A stretch of DNA of 64,000 nucleotides from Lojkania enalia (Eukaryota; Ascomycota; Dothideomycetes; Pleosporales), in NCBI GenBank assembly GCA_010094045.1, contig ML986764.1, positions 34,454 through 98,453 of the forward strand, given 5' to 3'. Of this stretch, positions 3,001 to 41,598 are shown one piece after another. Position numbers and translations under genes: made by a program. The stretch's first letter is position 1. Each line of letters opens with the position of its first letter. Below the pieces are notes generated by a model. That model ran no database searches and was not told where the DNA came from. It was given only the letters and a program-made list of their open reading frames with translations.

Positions 3001-6000
3001 AGCTATCTACTCATCTGGGATTCCCGTCTGACCAGGGCGTCCTTTCTGCCAGCCTTCCCAGCTCTCTTCGACCCATCACATGTTTCCCAGAGGGGCCACG
3101 GGCCTTTCACGATTGGAGGGGTGCGGCCTAGCAGCAACCGCGTGTTCCAGCGATAGTACATACTGTAGTTGGGCCATGCGCTCTCAGCGTTCCCGTCGAT
3201 CCGCTTCCCGACTGTCTGGATGTAAATTACTCCCGAACAGCAAAATTGGACAAGGCGCTCGCTGATTTAGCAGATATGTATGTACCTATGTCCGTGTCTG
3301 CGGCTGGCTCTCTATTTCTCACTGGCAGCACCGCATCGCAATTGCCGCGTGCAGGCCCTGTATCTCTATTCCTTAGGCTTGGGCTAGTCGGCGTGTAGAG
3401 GCTCCTTAGTCCTTACCGACGCCATAATGGGGCAGACGGCAGCTAGAAGCATGGCCCAACAGCGGCCTAGCTCAGACTTGCGAACCATACCGCCGGGATC
3501 GTATACGATTCAGGATGCCTCAGAGTTACATACGTACAGTACAGTAGAGGAGCTCTCAGAAATAAGCTTCCTTTCGTCGCCCCTTGCCAATCAGTTGCCG
3601 TCAAAGTCCGGCTAGGGCACGGCGGCGAGCATAGCCAGGGACTGACTGTGCACTAAGTGTCAAAGAATGTTGACGGGGCTTGCATGCCTGGTGCAACTAG
3701 AGAAGCTGTGATTTGCGGGATGCATTCGAATCCTCCCTCCGCATCTAAGCGACGACGACTGCGGCTTGGTTTCTACGGCCTGGACGGGCGAGCAGCGACT
3801 GGCCTTTTTCCCCCATGAGTCGTTGTCACCATCCATGGGACCATGGTGTTGTCCCGCCGATCCTAACAGCCCGGTTGTCTGAGGTATATTTTCACCAGGT
3901 GGTCGGAGACACCACCACCGACTACCATGACAACGACAGAGAGCCCTGAGCTGGGCTCGTCTACTATGTTTCGATATACGACAAATAGCAGCAGGCGCAC
4001 TTGACAGCACCCTTGAACAGCCCTTTCCCTGCGCGCGCAGTTCTTCTGCCGAGCCCGGCGGCGGAACGGCGCGTGGCTCTCTGCAAGAAAGAAAGCTGCA
4101 CATATGCAGTACATATGCAGCAGCACGCGCGTCCCGAATCCGCTGACATTGGGGGCAGGCGTCGTTGCGTCCAAGTACAGAGTCTCGTGATTTTGAGGCG
4201 CATTACCTCCCTAAGATCTGGCAGACTTTGGCTACCCTGGGATACGTACTCTGGCATCCCGGGAGATGCATTGCGTGCAGGAGGCCGAGGCGGGCTTGGA
4301 GACCAACGCCTCTAAAACAGACCTCTGGGTCAGCGCGGCTCCGTGGCAGGCGCGTGTCAGAGGCCGCGTCTGGTCATGACCAAGCTGCACTACTAGCAAC
4401 AGAAGTGATGTGTTAGGAAATTTGTGCGAGAGCTCTCTCGCGATGGCGCGACTGAGGACCAGCCCACCACGAGCACGGAGCGCCAGGGACTCTACCGCGA
4501 CGCGGGAGAGCTGTAGATTATATATAGTGTTGTCTCATGTTACAGCATCACAGTATATATTCTGTGCAAAGATATGACGCAGTCGGCGGGTATGGGAGAG
4601 AAGAGAGCAGAGACGCGGGCAAGGGTTGGGACCGCTTCCGTCTAGCTGTTAGCGGGCGGCGTTGATGATTGGGTCGGATGGCAGCCATGCATATCACTAC
4701 CACTACATCTATTCTTGGAGGGTTCGGTGCGGCAACCAAAGGGACTAGTCGACACTGCTCACTCTTTTGGACTGTGTGGAGTATGCGGCCATGTCTATCA
4801 GTCATGGCAGGCGCGCGTGTCTGTAGCAGGAGGCAGGCTATGTGTGTGCGAGTGAGTGAGCGAGTGAGTGAAGGTGTGGATGTGTGTGCAGATGACGAGC
4901 AGCGCCGTCGTCGCCGGGCGGCCATCCGCCCTTTCGGCATTCACTCCTCCATTACGTTACATGGTCAGCGTCGTTCGATGGCGGGCTGGGAGTGCAGGAG
5001 CTGCTGCTGCTGCTGCAGCCCGCGGTGGCCGATAGCAGCGCCCTATATACATATGTATGTGGTATGTACACGCCGGGCGACGGGGCAGACGCCAACGAGA
5101 GCGCGGCCTTCCCTCCTGAGTGAGGCGGCAGGCGGACGACGGGCAGAGAGAGGACATGGGATGATGGCATCCGTGGCATGGCATGGGGGCACGGGGCCTG
5201 GGGTGGGTCGAGCGTGCCGGCGCGCAGAGTAGTCATCCACGGCTCTGCTGCGAGCCAGAGCTGTGGGAGCCGCTGGCCAATGGCGCGCCGTCGCCAGCAG
5301 CGTTCCCGAGAGAGTGGATTTGGGTCCGGCGGAGGTCTTTTCCTTGGATTGCGCTGCAGCCCGGCGGCCTGTGACTGGCTGCCGCTCACGCCCACCCCTA
5401 CTGCTCAGTGCTCGACCTGCTCCGGAGGAAGCATGTCCAGGTGCTGCCCCGTTCGTGGCGCACGAGCCGGCAAAAATAATAGCGACCGCTGTTATGCCTC
5501 CTTCGCTCGGCCGGTGCGCCTGTCCTGTCTTGTTCAGTAGTTGCAACTTGTTGGAGCTTGCCGTGGCGGTCCCCTGTCTCCTCCCCCAGCCAGCCCGCCT
5601 GCCTGTGTGCGTCGACTAAACTGCCTGCGCTTGGGTCTCCTCGTGCCGTGCGACGGCTACTGCACGGCGCCCCGAGGGACATGGGACGAGGGGACGCAGG
5701 ACAGGGCCTTCTTTTTTGGCTCCCCTGGTCGTCTTTATAATTGAGAAACCGCTGCCGTGGAATCCCGGTCGGAGTGGCTCTTGATCTGGCGCTGGCTCTG
5801 GTGCTGGCTCATCTGGCTTTACGCACCGCACCCAACCTTCCTTGGAAGTAATAAATCAAACCTCCCCGCCTCCCCTCCGTCCACTTACAATCGCCCTCCC
5901 ACCCCCTCGCGCCGCCTCACCTCACCTCACCTCCCCCGTGCCCATCGCCCTGCACCGCGCTCTTCGCCGTCGCTGCAGCCCCAGGTCCTTCTTGTCGACG

Positions 6001-6117
6001 ACCTCCGCGACGCTCGCATCTGACGTCTCATGACCTCGTCGCTGCTATCGACTCTGCGCGTCCTCGCTCCGGCTGCCCAAACTTATTAAACCGCGTCCCC
6101 CGCCACCAGCGGCCTTT
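1..6117. other. No supported gene; GC-rich in its second half
   Basis: I see no gene here. Open frames up to 227 codons exist between about 2.4 and 5.7 kb, but they lie in GC-rich sequence where stops are rare, overlap each other on both strands, and show no recognisable domain, signal peptide or conserved splice pattern. The stretch holds simple repeats: a GAGT/GCGA tetranucleotide run at about 4850-4871 and five CTG units at 5001-5015. The last few hundred bases are the upstream region of the laeA-like gene. Confidence 0.6.
5861..5960 (+). promoter_or_regulatory. Pyrimidine-rich tract upstream of the laeA-like gene
   Basis: About 100 bases consist almost entirely of C and T with repeated CCTCACC/CCTCCCC units, ending about 160 bases before the proposed ATG. 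CT-rich blocks are typical of filamentous fungal core promoters, where transcription often starts just downstream. The position fits the laeA-like gene at 6118. No binding site for a named regulator is claimed. Confidence 0.4.
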
Positions 6118-7619
6118 ATGAGGAGCAAAGCTGCTCCAATGGTTACGATGGCTACGAATGGGTGAGTTGCAGCGCCTCTCCCCGCTTTCCGTGCGACCGC
6201 CTGCCCGCTTCCCGCTTTCCGCTTCCCGCACCGTGCTGTCCGCCCCCGGCTGCGAGAGAGAGAAAAAAAGATAGAGAGCTGCGCGGCCTCTATGTGAATC
6301 ATTGCTGACCCGCCCAGGATGGCTGTTCCCGCTTCGGGCGGCAACTACTCGGAGAACGGCCGCTGGTACCATGGCTTCCGCCGCGGAATATACATGTATC
6401 CCTGCGACGAGGTGAGAATAGCCTCCTCTAGAATCGCTGCGGGAGGAATTGCGCGGAACGGCTAACGCGAGACGCATTGTACAGCCCGAAAAGGACCGTA
6501 TGGACATTTACCACAAATTATTCCTCGTTGCACGGAGAGACCAGCTGCATCAGGCTCCGATTCCGCAAAATTGGGAACAGCCCCGCATCCTAGACTTGGG
6601 CTGTGGAACGGGCATCTGGGCGATTGATATGGCAGAGTAAGTCATGTTCCGCAGTCTGCAGTGCACCCCTCTCAAGTCAATGCCCGTGCTCCAGACACCC
6701 CTGCTAACTGGCCCTGTCCACAGTCGATACTTGCACGCTGAGGTTAGATTCGCCTACTTCTGGGCTACCACTTTCAATTGATGGCTGACTTCAAAAGGTC
6801 GTGGGCTTGGACCTGGTCAATATCCAGCCGGAAAAGTGCGTAACTGATTACGGATTGAGTACGGCAAGTATTAACCTTGTTTGTGTATAGGATCCCACCA
6901 AAACTGCGCTTTCGCGTCCCACACGATTACGAGAGCCCATGGTCTCTCGGCGAAGACTCCTGGGACTTGATTCATGCGCGAATGGCCTGCGGCAGCGTTT
7001 CCAGCTGGCCAGAGTTGTACCAGAAAATATATTCGTATGCTTGTGCCCTGTAGCATGTTTCGCCTAAGCTAACTTCTGGCTAGGCACCTGAGGCCTGGTT
7101 ATGGGTGGATTGAGCACGTCGAGATCGATCTTGAACCACGCTGTGATGACCACACCCTTTCTCCAGATAGCGACCTAGTCAAGTGGTACAATTACCTGGC
7201 GGATGCGACGGCCCGAGTTTCACGACCCATTGCCTACAACCACCAGACCCGTCAAATGCTGCAAGCTGCCGGCTTCATTGATATTCAGGAAATCGTCATT
7301 CGCGCGCCGTACAATTCGTGGCCCAACGACCCTCATCAGAAAGAGATCGGCAGGTGGTACAACCTGGGTATAACCGAGGGTCTGGATGCTCTGAGTTTCG
7401 CAGCCTTTACGAGAGTGTATCGGTGGGATCTGAACGAGCATGTCAAACCACTAGTTGAATCTGTCCGTAAACAGATATGCAACAGAAAAATTCATGCGTA
7501 CAACAACATGTAAGGCGACCCACGGTATTTGTGATACCAATTCATTGATGTCACCCACCCAATGCTGACCCCTTGCTCCCGGCAGACATATCTGGACGGC
7601 TCGAAGACCCCAGCAGTGA
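6118..7619 (+). CDS. laeA: LaeA-like SAM-dependent methyltransferase
   Basis: Predicted 316-residue homologue of LaeA/Lae1, the nuclear methyltransferase-like partner of velvet proteins that controls secondary metabolism and development. Eight exons: 6118-6161, 6318-6411, 6485-6636, 6724-6742, 6798-6835, 6891-7034, 7084-7509, 7586-7619. The core opens with [19 protein letters not shown], the LaeA signature before the domain. SAM motif [10 protein letters not shown], lies at about residues 81-89. Later come [26 protein letters not shown] and the family C-terminus [14 protein letters not shown], which is restored only if the last intron (7510-7585) is removed. The first exon rests on a good GTGAGT donor and GCTGAC branch site; a start at 6319 is the alternative. 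The N-terminus is shorter than in Aspergillus LaeA. A LaeA-like paralogue (Llm type) cannot be excluded, but the C-terminal motif favours LaeA itself. Neighbouring DNA is gene-poor on both sides. Confidence 0.88.
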
Positions 7620-31365: not shown

Positions 31366-34300
31366 TTACGCGGCGTTTCCGAGCGGGTCGTCCAGTGAGA
31401 GCACTGGCTTGATGATGTGGTCGTGGAATTTATGCATTTTCTCGTGTTTTTGGGGTTTGTTTCGTTTGACGCGTTGAGATGGATTGATCTTGCTAACCTT
31501 AGAAGGAAATCTAAAGCTGAACTCGAAGTGGAAGGAATCATCTTGCTTGGTGGGAGTTGAGACCGAAGTTGGTCGTCGCAGCGGGAGACGCCAGGACTTG
31601 GACTGGGATAAAGCGAGACGTTGATAGGAGTTAACCAGCGTCTCTTTATCTTCTCGCTTTATGTGCTGGCAGTCTCTCCATACGCGGGGTAACCCTGATG
31701 CGGGCTCGGACTTAGCAGAGATAGGTGCTGGCATTCCCAGGCCCTTGGTATGTACCTTCTCCCACACGAGGGGCGGGAGTCCTTGAGGGAATGTCTCGCT
31801 GGCCTTGAGTGCGTTGCATTCCCAGTACATTTGCTCGCCCGCAGTGTGGAGGAGCCGCCGGCTGAGGAGTCTCTCCTGAAGACTCCAGGCTCGAGTATCC
31901 CATGCAAAGCCAGTCGTGTACCAGTCGAGTGTGGGGTCAGGGGCTTTGTTGTCGACGACGATGGTCAGCGACGCGTTGCGGTAGACGGATGCCATGGCTG
32001 CACATTCTCTCTGCTTCTCCTCTTCCGAATCCTGCAGAATACAGAGTGAATCTAGCCAGATATATCGATAGCCGATGCAGCTGGCGGTAGAGATGGCGTT
32101 GGCGATAGGTCTAGATAGTATATCCCGAGGGAGTACACCTGCTGTGTCTTGTAGAAGCTCGTCGGTAAGGATTAGATCTGAAGAGCTCCACATGTGGCTA
32201 ATCACGGCGTAATCGATCTGTTCCGAGCCCATGTCTGCACTGCTGATTATCTTCACTTGAAGTCCTGCGTTGTCACTTGGCTGAACCTTTAGAAGGCGTG
32301 TTGGTAAGGTTTTGGCATCATCGGTTTGCTGACGACATGCCGAGTGCGACTGCGAGCATTCATCAAGCCAAGTTTGTGCTTGTTTGAAAGATTCCCGTTT
32401 TCTCTTGTCGTTTACGCCATGGCAGAGCTGGAGGTGGTCAAGGCAATCGACACCATCCTCGTGGATTAGCATCTCTACCGTGCTAAGCTCTTCCAGTGGA
32501 CCGGGGAAGGCTACATTGTCATTGGGCCAACTGAGACAACATGGTGCAGGCGTGAAGATCATGGTGAGTCGTGTGGCATCTGGTCGCTCGGTCGGTTCAT
32601 TATGAAGCATGCTCTTGACGGTATGGAGTACTGTGGCCTCGAGTAGATCTGCAGATTGATCCAACAACTCAGACAGGTACTTTTGGAGAAGAGGCACATT
32701 TTGCCAGTAGTATTTTCCGTCGCAGCCACAGAATTCGTGGCGGAATCTGTGCCATTGCTTCTTATCATGGCCGAAGGCAACCCCTGCCATCTCCAGGAAC
32801 ACGCAACCTAGGCTCCAGATATCGGCAGTTTGTTCGCGAGCGACGCCGGCAGGTACCTCAGGCGCACAATATTGGCGTGTTAAGGGTGTAGAATGAGGAC
32901 CATGTGCTATATCATCTGACGAGCTGATACCGAAATCGCTTAGCACTACATGTGGATGCTCGTAGTTGCCGTGCATAACAAGAATGTTCTGTGGCTTGAT
33001 GTCCATATGTTTGACAATTGGACGTTGCTCATGGAGGTAACGGACTGAGGAAGCAAGGCAGCCATACATCTTTACAATCGTAGCAGATAGGCCTGAAGGT
33101 TTCTCTAAGGAATTTTGTGCGAGCCAAGCTGCAAGCGTAGTTTCTGCGACAGGCGAGAGAAGGATAGAGACCTTGTCCCCTTTGGAGTAGGCTCCAAGGA
33201 AGCGAATAATATGTGGATGGCGAAGTTTTTGGAGGACTGTGACCTCTTTCTTGAGCTCTTCCATGGCAGATCGTTCACGATTCTTTAGAGTCTTACGACC
33301 AACCCTCAAATTTGTTTCGCGATGAATGACTTCGTCTACTGTGCTAAATCCACCTGTGCCCAAAAGCTTAACACTTAGGAAGGTTTGTGAAAGGTTAGTA
33401 ATTGTTGACATCAGGGTATTGATGTTACTCCATCCGGTTGTCGCTGCGCTCAAATGCATACGAGCCACCCTTACAAATTCAAAGATGTTCCCGAGACTTG
33501 ATCGCTGTGTTGAGTCTAGCTGGCCGATATTTTCCATTGCTTCGAGAGCCACGGAAAGGAGTAAGGGTTGTTGGCTGTTAAGAGTGGCTTGGCGATCAAT
33601 CTTGCCACTGAGCTGCATAGGCTTGGTGTCCGGCTCGTACATCATGTTCCACAGATCCTCTACAGTTGTGCAATTCGCGAGTGTGCTCGCTATGCCAACT
33701 ATGGCGACCTGGTCCCCTGGTACGTTTTCGTCTGGTTTGCCAAGGCCATTGTCGGAGTCACCAACTTCCATTTGGGTGTCTTCAGTCTCCAGAGAGCTGG
33801 TTGGTACAGCGTATATATCCATGGGTTCAGCTTCTTGCTTAATTTGGGGAACCTCAGAGGTCTGCTGCACAATTGGTACTTTACTCTTCACGATGGAGAA
33901 TAATGAAGGGAAGACTTGGTAGGTTACCTGTTTCTCCGCGGACGTAGTGGCACCATGGGTAAAGTACTCAGTAATCCCTTCGCATTGCATCTAAGGAATT
34001 GTTAGTAGATCTTACAAGGTGTTGGGTGTCTGATAAATACGTTTAGGTAGTTCCATTGTCGTTTATTCCGAGAAAATGAGCTCTCCGCGCTGAGAATAAA
34101 TTGTGCACGGTCCGAAGTGAAATCGGTACGAATTTTGCTAGAATTATCGATTAAGAAGATAATGTCTTTGTGAGTGAACGGGTCCCGAAAATCATCGATG
34201 CTCTTCTGAGGTGGCATTTTCTTATGCTGACATCCGTTCGACAGTGTCTTGCATTTCTTGAAGCCGCAAGGGTACGCGACTTTTGATGGGACAAGAGTAT

Positions 34301-37300
34301 CCGAGACATTGCCATCGGCACAATTCGATGGCTGGGTTGGATGCTCGTTCTTGACGCACCTGTCACGGAAAGCATTCGTACGCAATCCCCTCTTAGAACG
34401 CTTACTTGTCGGTGTCGGGTAGTTGTATCGTGGTGTATGCAGCCAGCTACGACTCTCTTCCGAGTCGCTTGCATCGTCCATAGCGGTATCGGATGAGTTC
34501 ACTATATCGGCGCCGGTGGAGCCTTCTTCATGTTCAGGAATGCCTTTAGGACCCCTAAGTCCTTGCTGGCTACTGCCATTTTCGAGTGTAGCACCCAGGA
34601 TGCAGTTGTCCAGATGCTTATAGAATTTTCGCGCGTTGTCATATATCACGAAGCAAGCTGAGCTGTCGCCCACCTTCTCGGTTACTAGTTTTAAATTGCC
34701 AGCCGAGGGCTTATTGGACCGGACATTGTGGAATCGGGCCAAGTGCCGTTTGAAGAGGTCCGCACGGTTGAAAGTCTTTTCAATGCCTGTGCTAGACTTG
34801 GGATGATCGGGACAGAAGCAACAAACCCATGTTCCCTTGGAGTGGGTCAAAGTGTCTTGGTCCTTGGTATACTTCCCTGCAAAACACTTCGGGTGGTACT
34901 CACAAGTAGCGATAGGACACTTCTCTGGTTGGTGGTTTCCATGGGTCCGCATGTGTGGCTTTACGACTTGGAGGACTTGGCCAGAACCCTCTGATCTGGT
35001 TTTCAAGCATACCGGGTATAAAAGACAGAACTGGCAGACAGTATTATCCATTATTTCCTCGCCCTTATTAGCATTGCTTGGGCCCTCGTCGGGAAGTAAC
35101 GGATAAGCCAGTGGAGACGGATTTTGCGGACCCAAAACGCCGTCGTATATTACTTGAGGAGACATCATGGACGGCGCTAACCCAATGCGGGGGTCTGGAT
35201 TAGCTAAGTACATGGAGAAAGCATCTCTGGCCAGAGTATTCGTGTTATCTCTCTCTGCCTCGCTGTCCCTGGATTGGTAGCCATGGTTGGGCGACGTGTT
35301 ACATGATTGGTCGACAGGGACGAGGACTTGGTCAGGACTTTGGAAAGACGATTCCAGAGCTTGGTCCGGCTCGGAGGAGCACTGCCTCCAACGTTGGCTT
35401 CTCGAACTTGTTGGCTCGATATCCTGTGGGTGGGATGGACTAATAACTTGTCTATCCCTATCAATAGCCTTGGAGTGTTGGCCTCTATTGTAATTACCGC
35501 AATTTTCTGATGCGTCGGCCTTAGCAGACTGCTGTTTGGTCTCTGCGCACTTAAATTCAGAGAGGTCGAATTGCGTGAAAGCGTTGGAAGGGGGAAATTG
35601 GCTTCCTCCGAAACCATTTCCACCGCCGTTTCCGTTGAAATCTTGCTTTGGGCCTGGTTGGTTCTGATCGTCGTTGTCTGATTGACCATCCGAGGGCCTA
35701 TTATCGTCGGAGCCGTCGGTATCAGGTCTATCATCATCGTCATCCGTATTGTCAGAACTATCATCTTCTTCATCGTTCCAATCTAGCATGCACTTTCCTT
35801 TCTTAAAGTGATCTATATCAAGATTAGCTAAAGCAAAAGTATGACATTGAAGGAGAGACGTACCTGCTATATGGTCGATACGGTCTTGCCTTGATACAAA
35901 GCGATGAGGACAGAATCCACATTTGCGCGGAAAGGCAGTATCAGTATAAAAAACGCTTTCATCCTCGTAATCGGCGCTGTTCAGCCCAGGATGAATGTTT
36001 TTGAAATGCTATGACACAATCAGCGGACGCAATTTCGGGGGAAGATTGATTCTACTTACCTGGGAGAAATGATACCGCCTAAAACATGGTTTTACTCTGT
36101 CTGCACCTTGGCTCTTGCATAGGCTGCACATCCACGATTTGGATGGATAGCCTTCTTCCTCGTTCCTCTTCCAGTCGCACTTCCGGCCATATCTCTTTCC
36201 ACATTTTCTCGTGCACTGGTAGATCTTGGTTGGATCTCGGCACAATAGTTCGGGATCTGAAGTGGGAGTGCAACCTTTCCTACCGCCCCGGAGGATAGGC
36301 TGAGTAGTTGAGGTGTGTGCGGTCTCGTGATTGCATGAAATAGCTTGGGATGTCTGGCTCGATGTCGTATCTTCGTTCGTGGACTGAGACTGATCCTGCT
36401 GGCTCAGGCTGGTTTGTGACTTATAAGCAGAATCATGTCCAGCAAGACCCTGTTTCAACATCTGACCAAACCAGTGCCTGATGGCCGACGAAGACTCTCC
36501 AGTAAGTTGGCTAAGAGACTCTACATGCTTATCACTATTTAAAACGTTAGCTATGACGAACAATCTCTGGCCCGAGCAGCAATCCGCAGCTTGTTGCAAA
36601 GTGGTAAAATATTACTAGGCAATAATGATAGATGGACACAATACTTACCTTGGTAAGATAGCATACTTGCTAAACCACGTAGCACATACATCAGCGGCCT
36701 CATCGCTAAGACCAATTTCTATTGAGCTCGATGGAGTAGGCTGAGTATCTATCGTCCAGCTTGATCCAGTAACAGAACCGGAAGTTGCAAAGGGTGAGAA
36801 GCCGGTATAATCCGTGCTCTCGTGCCTCTTTGGCTGGGGGAAGTCATGGGTGTCGAGCTGTAGTGGGCGCTTGTTATGGCTGAACTGTGGCTGATACATA
36901 GACGCAAACGACTGGTTGGGCGCAACGAAGTCATTCATAATAGGTGAGAATTGACTATTCCACGAAGCATTTCCAACGGTGTTATCCATGCTCTAGCCCA
37001 AGTAGTCAGCGCGAGTCTGGGTTGTCCTTCTGGGGCAAAGGTTTCTCACAAGATTCCGCTGCATTCCGTAGTCTGTCTCCGGAGGGATTGGGAATATACC
37101 CGCATCGATCGAATCAAATGACTGGACAGCGCCCATATCGAATTGGGCGCCCGTGGTCGTATCGATTCCCTCGTCACCTGAAAAAAAGAAGCTGGGGGTG
37201 TTACCCTCCGCAGGCTTCATAAACGATTGTTCATCACCCATTGTGTTATTCAAATGCTCGGTCGAGCCGATATTAAAGTTACTAAAATCCATGAAGCTGA

Positions 37301-37319
37301 TATTCTGATTCGCATCCAT
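31366..37319 (-). CDS. Homeodomain-C2H2-ketosynthase-like-kinase-HET fusion protein
   Basis: Predicted 1876 residues in six exons: 37050-37319, 36649-36992, 36060-36534, 35864-36008, 34041-35812, 31366-33990. Domain order: divergent homeodomain about 184-235 (SAIRHWFGQM); zinc-finger block about 305-412 ending KCGFCPHRFVSRQDRIDHIA; acidic stretch 424-460; further Cys/His clusters about 670-775 (WVCCFCPDHP, FKRHLARFH); ketosynthase-like fragment 1096-1159; Ser/Thr kinase about 1209-1477 with GTGGFSTV, DIKPQNIL, DFG, APE and DIWSLGCVF; HET domain about 1596-1690 (YRYIWLDSLCILQDS, ERLLSRRLL). Homeodomain plus C2H2 is a known fungal regulator type; HET domains act in nonself recognition. The key join, intron 33991-34040, is phase 0 with a CTACTAAC branch site and TTAG acceptor, and no stop separates the halves. 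Two adjacent genes remain the main alternative. The start at 37319 is chosen over an in-frame one at 37454 because upstream sequence looks untranslated. Confidence 0.72.
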
Positions 37320-38500: not shown

Positions 38501-41130
38501 TTAAACTGGGTTTTTCATGAACCAGTCCGAGCTTGCGTCCACCATGTAATTTGTAATATTGAATTCATTGCTTGGTGCTCCTTCATGCAGGTGTATCGAT
38601 CCATCTGCCCCATTGGCAGGCCCATAACTCGTTGGAGTATCCATAGAAACTGGCAAGCGCGGCATATTAAAGAAGTCAAACACGTCAAGGTATTCAAACT
38701 CGTTTGGTCCAGGAGTCCGAGCAGGTGTGACAGACCCAGGCCGAGTCAACGAGTGAAGCTTCGGCTGTCTGGATATAAGGAAGTCCAGATCGAATGCACA
38801 ACGACGCATATCTGCTAATATTTTCACGGTGGAAGGCGTTACTCGGTCTCCGTTGACGCCAGCATGTGTTCGCTGAGATTCCTGATACTCATGAAGAACT
38901 CGAGAGAGTAAATTGGCGTAATTCTTGGCAACCTCCCAGTATTGGCCAATTTCTTGCAATGTGCTGACCAGGAGGTTTACGGATGGATCAACTCGATGAT
39001 CGATAGTTGAGCCATGAACAAGTAGAACCCGCGCCGCGACCCAAAGAGAGAATGCAAATGGCGGGCCAAGCTTGGTTAGGAGCCCATTTTCTCGAATGCA
39101 GCCACAGAGAGCTGTGATGCTCTCAACAGCGTTTAGACACCTCTGGCTAGCGCTGAATGAAGGTGTGAATATCGGTGACCGGTGAGTTGGATACGCCGCT
39201 GACGAGTGCAATCGGATCACAGTTCTATGATGAAGTTAGCTTGGACAGTTGAAATATTGGCAGATCTGAAAGAATCCCGGCCTAGCTTACGTGTGGAATG
39301 CGGCATGTAGCATAACTAGGCCGCTGTTGAGGTTCTTGTTCGTCCCTGGCCCTGAAAAGAGGCGTGCCGAGTTGCCATATTCACTCGGAAGATGGTACTT
39401 CCACTGCTCGATTGCATTATCAAGCTCGCGGTATTCCCCCTGCCATTTCTCTACGTCCGAAAGGGATGTTATGTCCACAGGCTTTTTAAGGAAATTGTGT
39501 ATGCGAGACAATATGCCGAGAATTTCCACGTAGTAGGAAAACGAACCCAAATTTTCTGGCCTATTCATACGGTAGTCCGACCGCGTCGAAGTGTGAAACC
39601 ATCTCGTTTCTGCTGATACATTGCGCGTAAAGAAATCATCCCGACAGGGTAGCCGGCGGTCGATTTCCTTTTCATCCAACGCAAACTCAAAAGCTGTAGC
39701 AACAGTCGCATAGCGATCAAGTACGTAGATCATCCAAAAAAGCCGGCGGCGGCTCTCTTCTTCTATCCAGTCCTTAGGTTCAGGTAATATGGTTGCACGC
39801 AAGGTGTAAATAGACTTGTACTGAGGCTCCACCATTGGCGAGGATGTCTCCATGGACAGACCGAGTTGCACGACCGAACGCGTGATGAGGGCAAGCATAT
39901 TCCACCCAGGCGGTCCATTGGAGCACCCCACGACATCCAAGGAAAGAATGACAAGGGCTTGCAATGACTTGACAGAGCTGTTCTCAATGCCATAGAGCAA
40001 GACTTTTTCTTTTGACATCCGATGATATCGGCCCCTCTTCTCTAGGCTCAGGCGGACGTCAGTTGAGAACTTGAGCGTGGTCGCAACAATGGCGTGTAGG
40101 ATGATGCGATCGGCTTCGTCCAAGCTCGCTTCTCCAAAGAGGGAGTTTAGGGTGGTTTGACGATGCAAGATGGGGCACCACGGGTATATATGCTTGAAGA
40201 ACAGGTCAACGAGGCCGTAGAGGAGGTCGTACGGTGGGAAATCGGTATCGCTGTGTCCGATGGTCCCCTGCCCGAGAGGCCCGTTCATCTGTGGCGGTGC
40301 GAATCGCTCACTGGCATAGGGGGAAGGCGCAACTGGGCCGTAGACGTCCCGCTGCAGCCCACCCAACGGAGGCTGGATCTCGTCGGCCGGCCCGTTGTAG
40401 CCATTGGTCCCGACAGGAGGAGGCGGGGCGGGCGGCCGCTGCTCCGGGATGCCACTGCTGAAGCTGGACTGGATCGGTGCTTGTGGCGGGAAGGCAGCTG
40501 GCTTCTGGATGAAGAGCGCGGTCTCGGGGCGGGGCACGTGCGGTGTGTGGAGGAGGGGAGGGGTCCTGAAGACGGGGGGGTCGTGCGGCGAAGCCACGGA
40601 CGGCGCGAGCTGGCTGTTCGACAGCTGGTTGATCTGGCTCTGCTGCTGGTGGAGCAGGGCCTCGAGCTTGTCTGTTGGTCGTGTCTCCCGTCAGTGTTCC
40701 GTTGGCTACGACAGCGGGTGGAATCTCTCAACTCACCAAGCCGTGCCTCCAGCTCTCGCCCGTAGCCGGCGCGCAGGCCGGGCTTCTTACGCGGCAGATA
40801 GGTGCATGGCGAGTGGTTTTTCAGACACCAGCCGCACGACGGCTGGCCGCGATCGCACTTGACCTTGCGCTGCTTGCACGTCTCGCAGCTCACGGACAGC
40901 GGGCGTTTGCGCTTCGACGAGCCGCTCTGGCTCCTGTTCGCCTCATCCGCGCTCGAACCATCGCCGCTCCAGTTGTCGTGGTCGTGTAGGTGGTCGTCGT
41001 CGGCCGGCGGCGAGTGCTGGGACAGCTTCGCATGGGCGTCTGGACTGACATAGGGCTGGTCGGGGTTATTGGCGCTGGCCGGATCCATGGTAGGCAGCGG
41101 CGCATGGAAATGGGAGCGCGCAACATTCAT
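38501..41130 (-). CDS. Zn2Cys6 transcription factor, candidate L-rhamnose regulator
   Basis: Predicted 832 residues in three exons (40737-41130, 39291-40671, 38501-39224). A binuclear zinc cluster with the spacing C-x2-C-x6-C-x6-C-x2-C-x6-C starts CETCKQRKVKCDRGQP at about residues 82-109, followed by the linker KKPGLRAGYGRELEARL and a short coiled coil (LLHQQQSQINQL) for dimerisation. After a proline-rich stretch comes the fungal-specific middle homology region, with DLFFKHIYPWCPILHR and EEESRRRLFWMIYVLDRYAT. The third exon starts TTVIRLHSSAAYP, completing HAAFHT across a 66-base intron. The gene is divergent from L-rhamnonate dehydratase with 468 bases between start codons; yeasts and Aspergilli have Zn2Cys6 regulators of rhamnose catabolism (TRC1, RhaR), so that role is inferred from position. 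A second ATG at 41088 is a possible start. Confidence 0.88.
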
Positions 41131-41598
41131 CGCAAGAGCATTAACCCGAGGACGAGCGCGACGTTCCCCGCTGTCGGGTGGGAGCTTTTGCCGCCGCCGC
41201 CGAGCTACCCCAGGCCGTTGTTCTGCTCGTTCGCCCGGCCGTCAACGCCCCCTCACTGGCTGCCGCTGCTTACCAAGCCTCCTGTTGCTTGCCCTCATAG
41301 GCGCGAAAACCACCTACTCTGCCTCGTGTGCTAGCCACGGATGGTCAGCCTCACTGCAATCCTCACAACTACCAACGGCTCCACACGCTCCGCGCAAGTC
41401 ACCATGGTCCGTCTCTTCGGCATAGCAATCGCTGCGAGATCGACCGAGGAGCCATCTGACGGCGCTTTTAGTCTACTTGACGACGCAACTCGTGCGCCGC
41501 ATATTTAACATTCCGTGCTCCTCCTCACCACTCTGCCTCATGACCACACCATCTGTGCCCTTTCCCCCGCCTTCTTTCTAATTGGCATCCCGCTCACT
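41131..41598. promoter_or_regulatory. Shared divergent promoter of regulator and rhamnonate dehydratase genes
   Basis: The 468 bases between the two start codons must hold both promoters. An AT-rich TATTTAA-like element at 41501-41510 lies 90-100 bases before the dehydratase ATG. The half next to the regulator is GC-rich with several CGG/CCG triplets, the half-site type bound by Zn2Cys6 proteins, and GCGGGG on the minus strand at 41166-41171 fits the CreA consensus SYGGRG. Such short motifs are frequent by chance in GC-rich DNA, so only the arrangement is certain. Confidence 0.5.

Follow-up and report, generated by a model that had tools for sequence, protein, structure and literature searches.

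Lojkania enalia (Pleosporales, according to a taxonomy look-up) possesses a gene whose product, as judged from its sequence and those of its relatives, is a conserved one-chain protein composed of a module of the homeobox-C2H2 family, a protein kinase that should be active and a C-terminal HET domain. This gene is located in a window of 64,000 nucleotides, which is the whole stretch of DNA that was analysed. The explanation that we prefer, with a probability of about 0.4, is that the kinase controls the C-terminal HET effector, the mechanism being one that we infer.

The coding region extends on the minus strand from its start at position 37319 to position 31366, the stop codon occupying 31366-31368. 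It is composed of six exons (37319-37050, 36992-36649, 36534-36060, 36008-35864, 35812-34041 and 33990-31366) separated by introns of 57, 114, 51, 51 and 50 nt, all five of them with GT...AG ends. As a preliminary description of this DNA had proposed, the exons form a single frame whose length is a multiple of three: once spliced, they comprise 5631 nt with a single terminal stop and code for 1876 residues. The features that this description had attributed to the fifth intron (34040-33991, minus strand, 50 nt) are also present, since it is a phase 0 intron that contains CTACTAAC and ends in CCTTAG. It joins the two halves of the protein inside a variable linker and, if retained, the upstream frame would be prolonged by 12 residues before reaching a stop at 34002. 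A homology search identified the deposited L. enalia protein CC78DRAFT_587149 (P0001, 1850 aa), whose sequence coincides exactly with residues 27-1876 of the model, and this identity implies the splicing of intron 5. The fusion protein is, then, already on deposit, under a general name that mentions the kinase domain only. The longer upstream start is probably better than the deposited start M27, because relatives align upstream of M27 in phmmer comparisons (P0004 from residue 3 of the query, P0005 from residue 6, and P0007 from residue 2). Upstream of the fusion gene, two minus-strand frames (39287-41241) match Fungal_trans and the Zn(2)-Cys(6) cluster and probably constitute one further transcription-factor gene.

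The homology search found 152 proteins, and the part-by-part scoring, carried out with phmmer, covers the 120 listed ones, a set that includes P0001, that is, the window protein itself. Among these listed matches, fingers, kinase and HET are present in one chain in 117 of 120, and all four parts, including the homeodomain-like one, in 101 of 120. The order homeodomain-like/C2H2/kinase/HET and the existence of one gene rather than two, both put forward in the preliminary description, are thus borne out. Scored part by part, the same 120 listed matches all cover the kinase; 119 of them cover the HET core, 119 the C-terminal HET block, 118 the finger array and 103 the homeodomain-like part. Of the 17 listed proteins devoid of the homeodomain-like part, 15 have jgi, lgn or ena as their source, and these start later in the protein. 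With respect to taxonomy, Mytilinidion resinicola belongs to the Mytilinidiales and Lophiotrema nucula to the Pleosporales, as looked up, and the remaining named relatives presumably belong mostly to the Pleosporales.

The quality of the individual records deserves attention. The first residue is V or L in 11 of the 120 listed relatives, among them P0055, a named partial record. Many metagenome entries appear to be unspliced frames, because P0128 continues past HFAQ into VS, at the site of the third intron of the window gene. Four other entries (P0115, P0116, P0117 and P0120) start with V and are continuous from the fingers through HET, so that in each of them a single intronless open frame would code for fingers, linker, kinase and HET. 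A search with the N-terminal 533 residues, in which candidates of 293-933 aa were considered, rendered 26 hits, 25 from jgi/lgn/ena and only one named to an organism; several of these stand-alone hits extend at their end beyond HFxQ, as expected of a frame that has not been spliced. The only named stand-alone N-terminal model among these hits is P0124 from Exserohilum turcica (459 aa, covering query residues 31-449), which may come from a gene wrongly divided in annotation or from one that is genuinely split.

These data bear on whether the window contains two neighbouring genes connected by a false intron call. An ATG is located directly behind the acceptor of intron 5, so that exon 6 alone could be read as a gene, and P0124 is a named protein consisting of the N-terminal part alone. 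However, homologues do not always end or begin near position 34000, the pattern that the preliminary description had set against its own one-gene model; the joined relatives, the four entries that run from the fingers through HET and are read as single unspliced frames, and the stop that a retained intron would bring just 12 codons past the upstream exon all argue for one gene. A two-gene artefact is rejected in view of the joined homologues among those listed, in spite of P0124, and we regard its probability as negligible. Since intron 5 sits in a barely conserved linker, the fusion does not depend on this intron.

The homeodomain-like part comprises residues 184-245 (36414..36713, minus strand, interrupted by the intron 36648-36535). 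Its assignment comes from the predicted model of the relative P0124, in which this part forms three confident helices, and from fold-search matches that are themselves homeodomains; the predicted structure is thus that of the three-helix homeodomain fold. It is followed by a conserved three-finger C2H2-like array (residues 309-418; 35793..36224, minus strand, interrupted by the introns 36059-36009 and 35863-35813), in which finger 1 lacks histidines; the array was assigned from the way its Cys and His residues are spaced, from its conservation and from how it aligns with factors encoded in the same genome. Pfam searches detected no homeobox or zf-C2H2 match in the window protein at E values up to 10, nor a homeobox or C2H2 match in any of 32 family members at E values up to 0.05.

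When the N-terminal half was searched against its own genome (58 Mb), the only full-length match was itself, accompanied by weaker loci. For instance, L035 contains a TALE-like homeodomain with the motif WMANTR, and L036 a homeodomain with the motif YFANQR, both seen by eye and followed, in the alignment, by the same finger array; L037 shows, by eye, fingers only. A homeodomain followed by the typical finger array of homeobox-C2H2 factors is therefore present in the window protein, as its alignment with L035 and L036 indicates. An additional locus, L039:2524-7000 (G000:C21:380500-387500), is, by eye, another case of a homeobox-C2H2 gene close to a HET gene: a homeodomain and C2H2 frame on the minus strand and a HET-like frame (5864-7000) on the plus strand are separated by about 2.3 kb.

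The residues expected to contact DNA are, however, not intact in the window family. The base contact made by Asn51 is generally considered near-universal among homeodomains. L035 and L036 keep this residue (WMANTR, YFANQR), whereas in the window family position 51 is Asn in just 1 of 87 readable relatives (33 of the 120 were unreadable). Similarly, finger 1 reads DWKRNEEE in the window family but DWxRHExxxH, with its histidines, in L035 and L036. The last finger, CGFC...H...H, is intact. Thus, the N-terminal half is, by sequence comparison, related to the homeobox-C2H2 factors of the same genome but has altered contact residues, and the ordinary DNA-binding half supposed in the preliminary description is not supported. 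It is also the most conserved half of the protein: the median identity to the window protein in 31 relatives is 0.79 for the homeodomain-like part and 0.76 for the fingers, above that of the kinase (0.65) among the relatives compared.

The region between the finger array and the kinase is very variable. Residues 426-600 (35247..35771, minus strand) form a stretch, recognised from its sequence, that is acidic, rich in glycine and of low median identity (0.19). A further C2H2 block at residues 690-835 (34542..34979, minus strand) is covered in only 4 of the 120 listed relatives and shares 52% identity with a separate gene of the same genome, located at C1:51140-51559. This second block is a minority feature of the family. 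Median identities in the 31 relatives are 0.03 for residues 690-835, 0.02 for residues 836-1002 and 0.03 for residues 1003-1190. The fast-evolving linker that holds intron 5 is about 785 residues long in the window protein versus a median of 261 in 119 measured relatives. Foreign pieces seem to be acquired by the linkers and tails, because the linker of P0003 (Zopfia rhizophila) contains VIGIDCGTTFSGVA, which by eye resembles the start of an Hsp70-type ATPase, and the relative P0008 carries ankyrin repeats.

A ketosynthase N-domain had also been suggested. The corresponding ketosynthase-like scrap (residues 1096-1123; 33628..33711, minus strand) gives a Pfam ketoacyl-synthase match of 12.9 bits against a cut-off of 20.8 (E 0.087), and it was rejected as a domain for being below the cut-off and for lying in a region (residues 1003-1190) only 0.03 identical in relatives. 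Its motif is found in P0001 alone among P0001-P0208. A ketoacyl-synt match with an E value of 0.0016 in another one of the 32 members counts against this rejection.

The protein kinase domain (residues 1209-1477; 32566..33372, minus strand) matches Pkinase with an E value of 3e-39, over the curated cut-off, and this match was obtained in all 32 members. The kinase should be active, since the 32 members do not differ in the glycine loop, the Lys of RKT, HxDIKPxN, DFG or APE. Behind the kinase lies the HET module (residues 1541-1752; 31741..32376, minus strand; Pfam core 32211-31954), which likewise matches in 32 of 32 members. In the window protein, the HET match (PF06985, residues 1596-1681) reaches 56.7 bits against a cut-off of 22.5 (E 4.6e-15) and spans positions 1-85 of the 146 of the profile. 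Among the domain searches proposed in the preliminary description, Pkinase and HET were consequently positive, while those for Homeobox, zf-C2H2 and the ketosynthase N-domain were not. The columns WxDxLC (WxDSLC), RN, RxW and YWxC (YWEC) are invariant in the 32 members; they correspond to W-D-LC, RN and R-W...YWEC, which we take to be the conserved blocks of the HET family. Of all the domains, the HET core shows the lowest conservation (median identity 0.46 in the 31 relatives), the C-terminal HET block reaching 0.74. As regards a TIR-like fold, the predicted model of kinase plus HET shows alternating strands and helices, and both fold searches were filled by kinases. A sequence comparison of the HET piece with solved structures gave 0 matches at E values up to 1, and no Pfam match to NACHT or NB-ARC was detected in the window protein at E values up to 10; the relative P0015 has a precomputed PF24883 annotation. 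The genome of L. enalia contains a single full-length match to the kinase-HET half and at least 150 HET matches (150 of 270 candidates were scored), some of them with internal stops.

The same order of parts probably occurs a second time in the Lojkania genome. At L030 (G000:C30:205500-212500, minus strand; L030:648-5287), one frame of 936 aa carries a homeodomain-like part, fingers, an acidic linker and a kinase, and a HET frame of 616 aa lies directly behind it. A predicted intron of 53 nt (GTAAGG...CTGTAG), preferred among seven possible in-frame donor-acceptor pairs on account of its donor, GTAAGG, would join kinase and HET in frame. A deposited Lojkania protein for L030 was not among 63 hits, whose candidates started near 900 aa, and for this reason the deposited model may be split or shorter. 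P0147, a deposited protein of Lophiotrema nucula (1685 aa), aligns with both halves, and P0148 (source lgn) unites an acidic linker, a kinase and HET in a single chain. At another locus, L029 (G000:C6:577500-584500, plus strand; L029:2076-6455), a short intron-like interval bounded by GTAAGT...AAG lies between a finger-bearing frame and a kinase frame, neither of which shows a HET match. In a kinase tree of 19 rows, L030 grouped with P0147 (support 100/98) and the window protein with P0119 and P0088 (99/100). Twelve of the 16 inner forks were open, branches were long and the bootstrap had not settled, so that the tree is compatible with one fusion or with two. The family of L030 and P0147 shares the order of parts with the window family but differs in its distant kinase and another HET type, and the homeodomain-like/C2H2/kinase/HET order is found in at least two distant families, whether derived from one fusion or from two.

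How the protein may work can be outlined as follows. The N-terminal module would be a former sequence-specific DNA binder that now senses or tethers, its candidate targets being a second protein, a nucleic acid contacted in an altered way or a further module of its own kind. Once engaged, this module would bring chains together, and the kinase could then phosphorylate the linker, the HET region or a partner. Phosphorylation would in turn release the TIR-related HET domain, giving rise to a cell-death or stress signal. Overexpression of a HET domain is reported to suffice for cell death, and HET domains are described as remotely related to TIR domains (PMC12881547, PMC10197012, PMC9815663). The built-in death switch suggested in the preliminary description is likewise possible. 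The joining of the parts in 117 of the 120 listed proteins, the intact kinase residues, the HET match in 32 of 32 members and the absence of Asn51 in 86 of 87 readable relatives support this scheme as a whole, and the distant second family of the same order also counts in its favour; the median identity of the HET core (0.46) and the restriction of the Pfam match to positions 1-85 of 146 count against it. Since the gene has been kept across the order, a standing role, rather than that of a polymorphic self/nonself locus, is suggested.

The main rival explanation, which we consider possible but doubtful, is that the protein is a conserved developmental or transcriptional regulator whose fingers hold it at chromatin, whose kinase acts on the transcription machinery and whose HET part is an assembly surface only. 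The relationship of the N-terminal half to homeobox-C2H2 factors of the same genome, its being the most conserved part and the intact last finger fit this proposal, and an allorecognition role is not known for most HET genes (PMC10197012, PMC12881547). However, the loss of Asn51 in nearly all readable relatives and of the histidines of finger 1 speaks against such a regulator. These same altered contact residues, together with the joining of a regulator-family module to signaling domains, would fit an integrated decoy, in which the transcription-factor half would serve to lure foreign effectors and, once disturbed, would fire kinase and HET. This bait had been one of the suggestions of the preliminary description, and the fused and altered module agrees with it; but a bait engaged in an arms race is expected to vary, and the identities of 0.79 and 0.76 speak against fast evolution, which renders the decoy quite improbable. 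The HET part might alternatively be a short inactive remnant attached to a conserved kinase. Although the partial Pfam match and the low identity of the core point in this direction, the match in every member, the invariant WxDSLC and YWEC columns and the conservation of the C-terminal HET block (0.74) make a remnant improbable. Control of the HET effector by the kinase thus continues to be our preferred explanation.

Each of these domains is known and the protein itself is deposited; it is the set of partners and their conservation that are unusual. Homeobox-C2H2 factors are a recognised fungal group, to which five of the nine homeobox genes of Phoma sorghina belong (PsHOX5-9; PMC11121360), and with which the window protein shares the homeodomain fold, the finger array and the last finger CGFC...H...H. 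In L035 and L036, no kinase or HET was seen in the same frame, while the window protein has both. With HET proteins (PF06985) such as HET-E, TOL, PIN-C and HET-6 it shares a HET domain over the cut-off and the conserved blocks, but here the HET domain is C-terminal, behind a kinase and a factor-like half. HET genes are reported to be numerous but poorly conserved between distant species (PMC10197012), whereas the window gene has been kept across the order. Kinase and HET are each listed as effector domains of fungal NLRs (PMC4986451, PMC9815663); the window protein differs in having Pkinase and HET in one chain and no NACHT/NB-ARC match. The preliminary description knew of no protein with all of these domains, and no published account of the homeodomain-like/C2H2/kinase/HET architecture was found in a literature search that had most subscription journals outside its coverage.

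In the Pleosporales, one gene keeps a HET domain across the order and carries it, within a single chain, together with a kinase predicted to be active. Whether phosphorylation controls a HET effector can thus be tested by inactivating the kinase of one protein. If the 50-nt intron were retained, a shorter product lacking both kinase and HET would arise as well. A module of a transcription-factor family appears here turned into a part of a signaling protein, which Pfam inventories of homeobox and C2H2 proteins would miss (0 of 32 members matched). More tentatively, and with less than even odds by a wide measure, there may exist a class of fungal signaling proteins, represented by two or more distant families, that employs a module which formerly bound DNA as the sensor, a built-in kinase as the switch and a C-terminal, TIR-related HET domain as the effector, making up a one-chain immune or death relay without a NACHT core that has been kept across an order.
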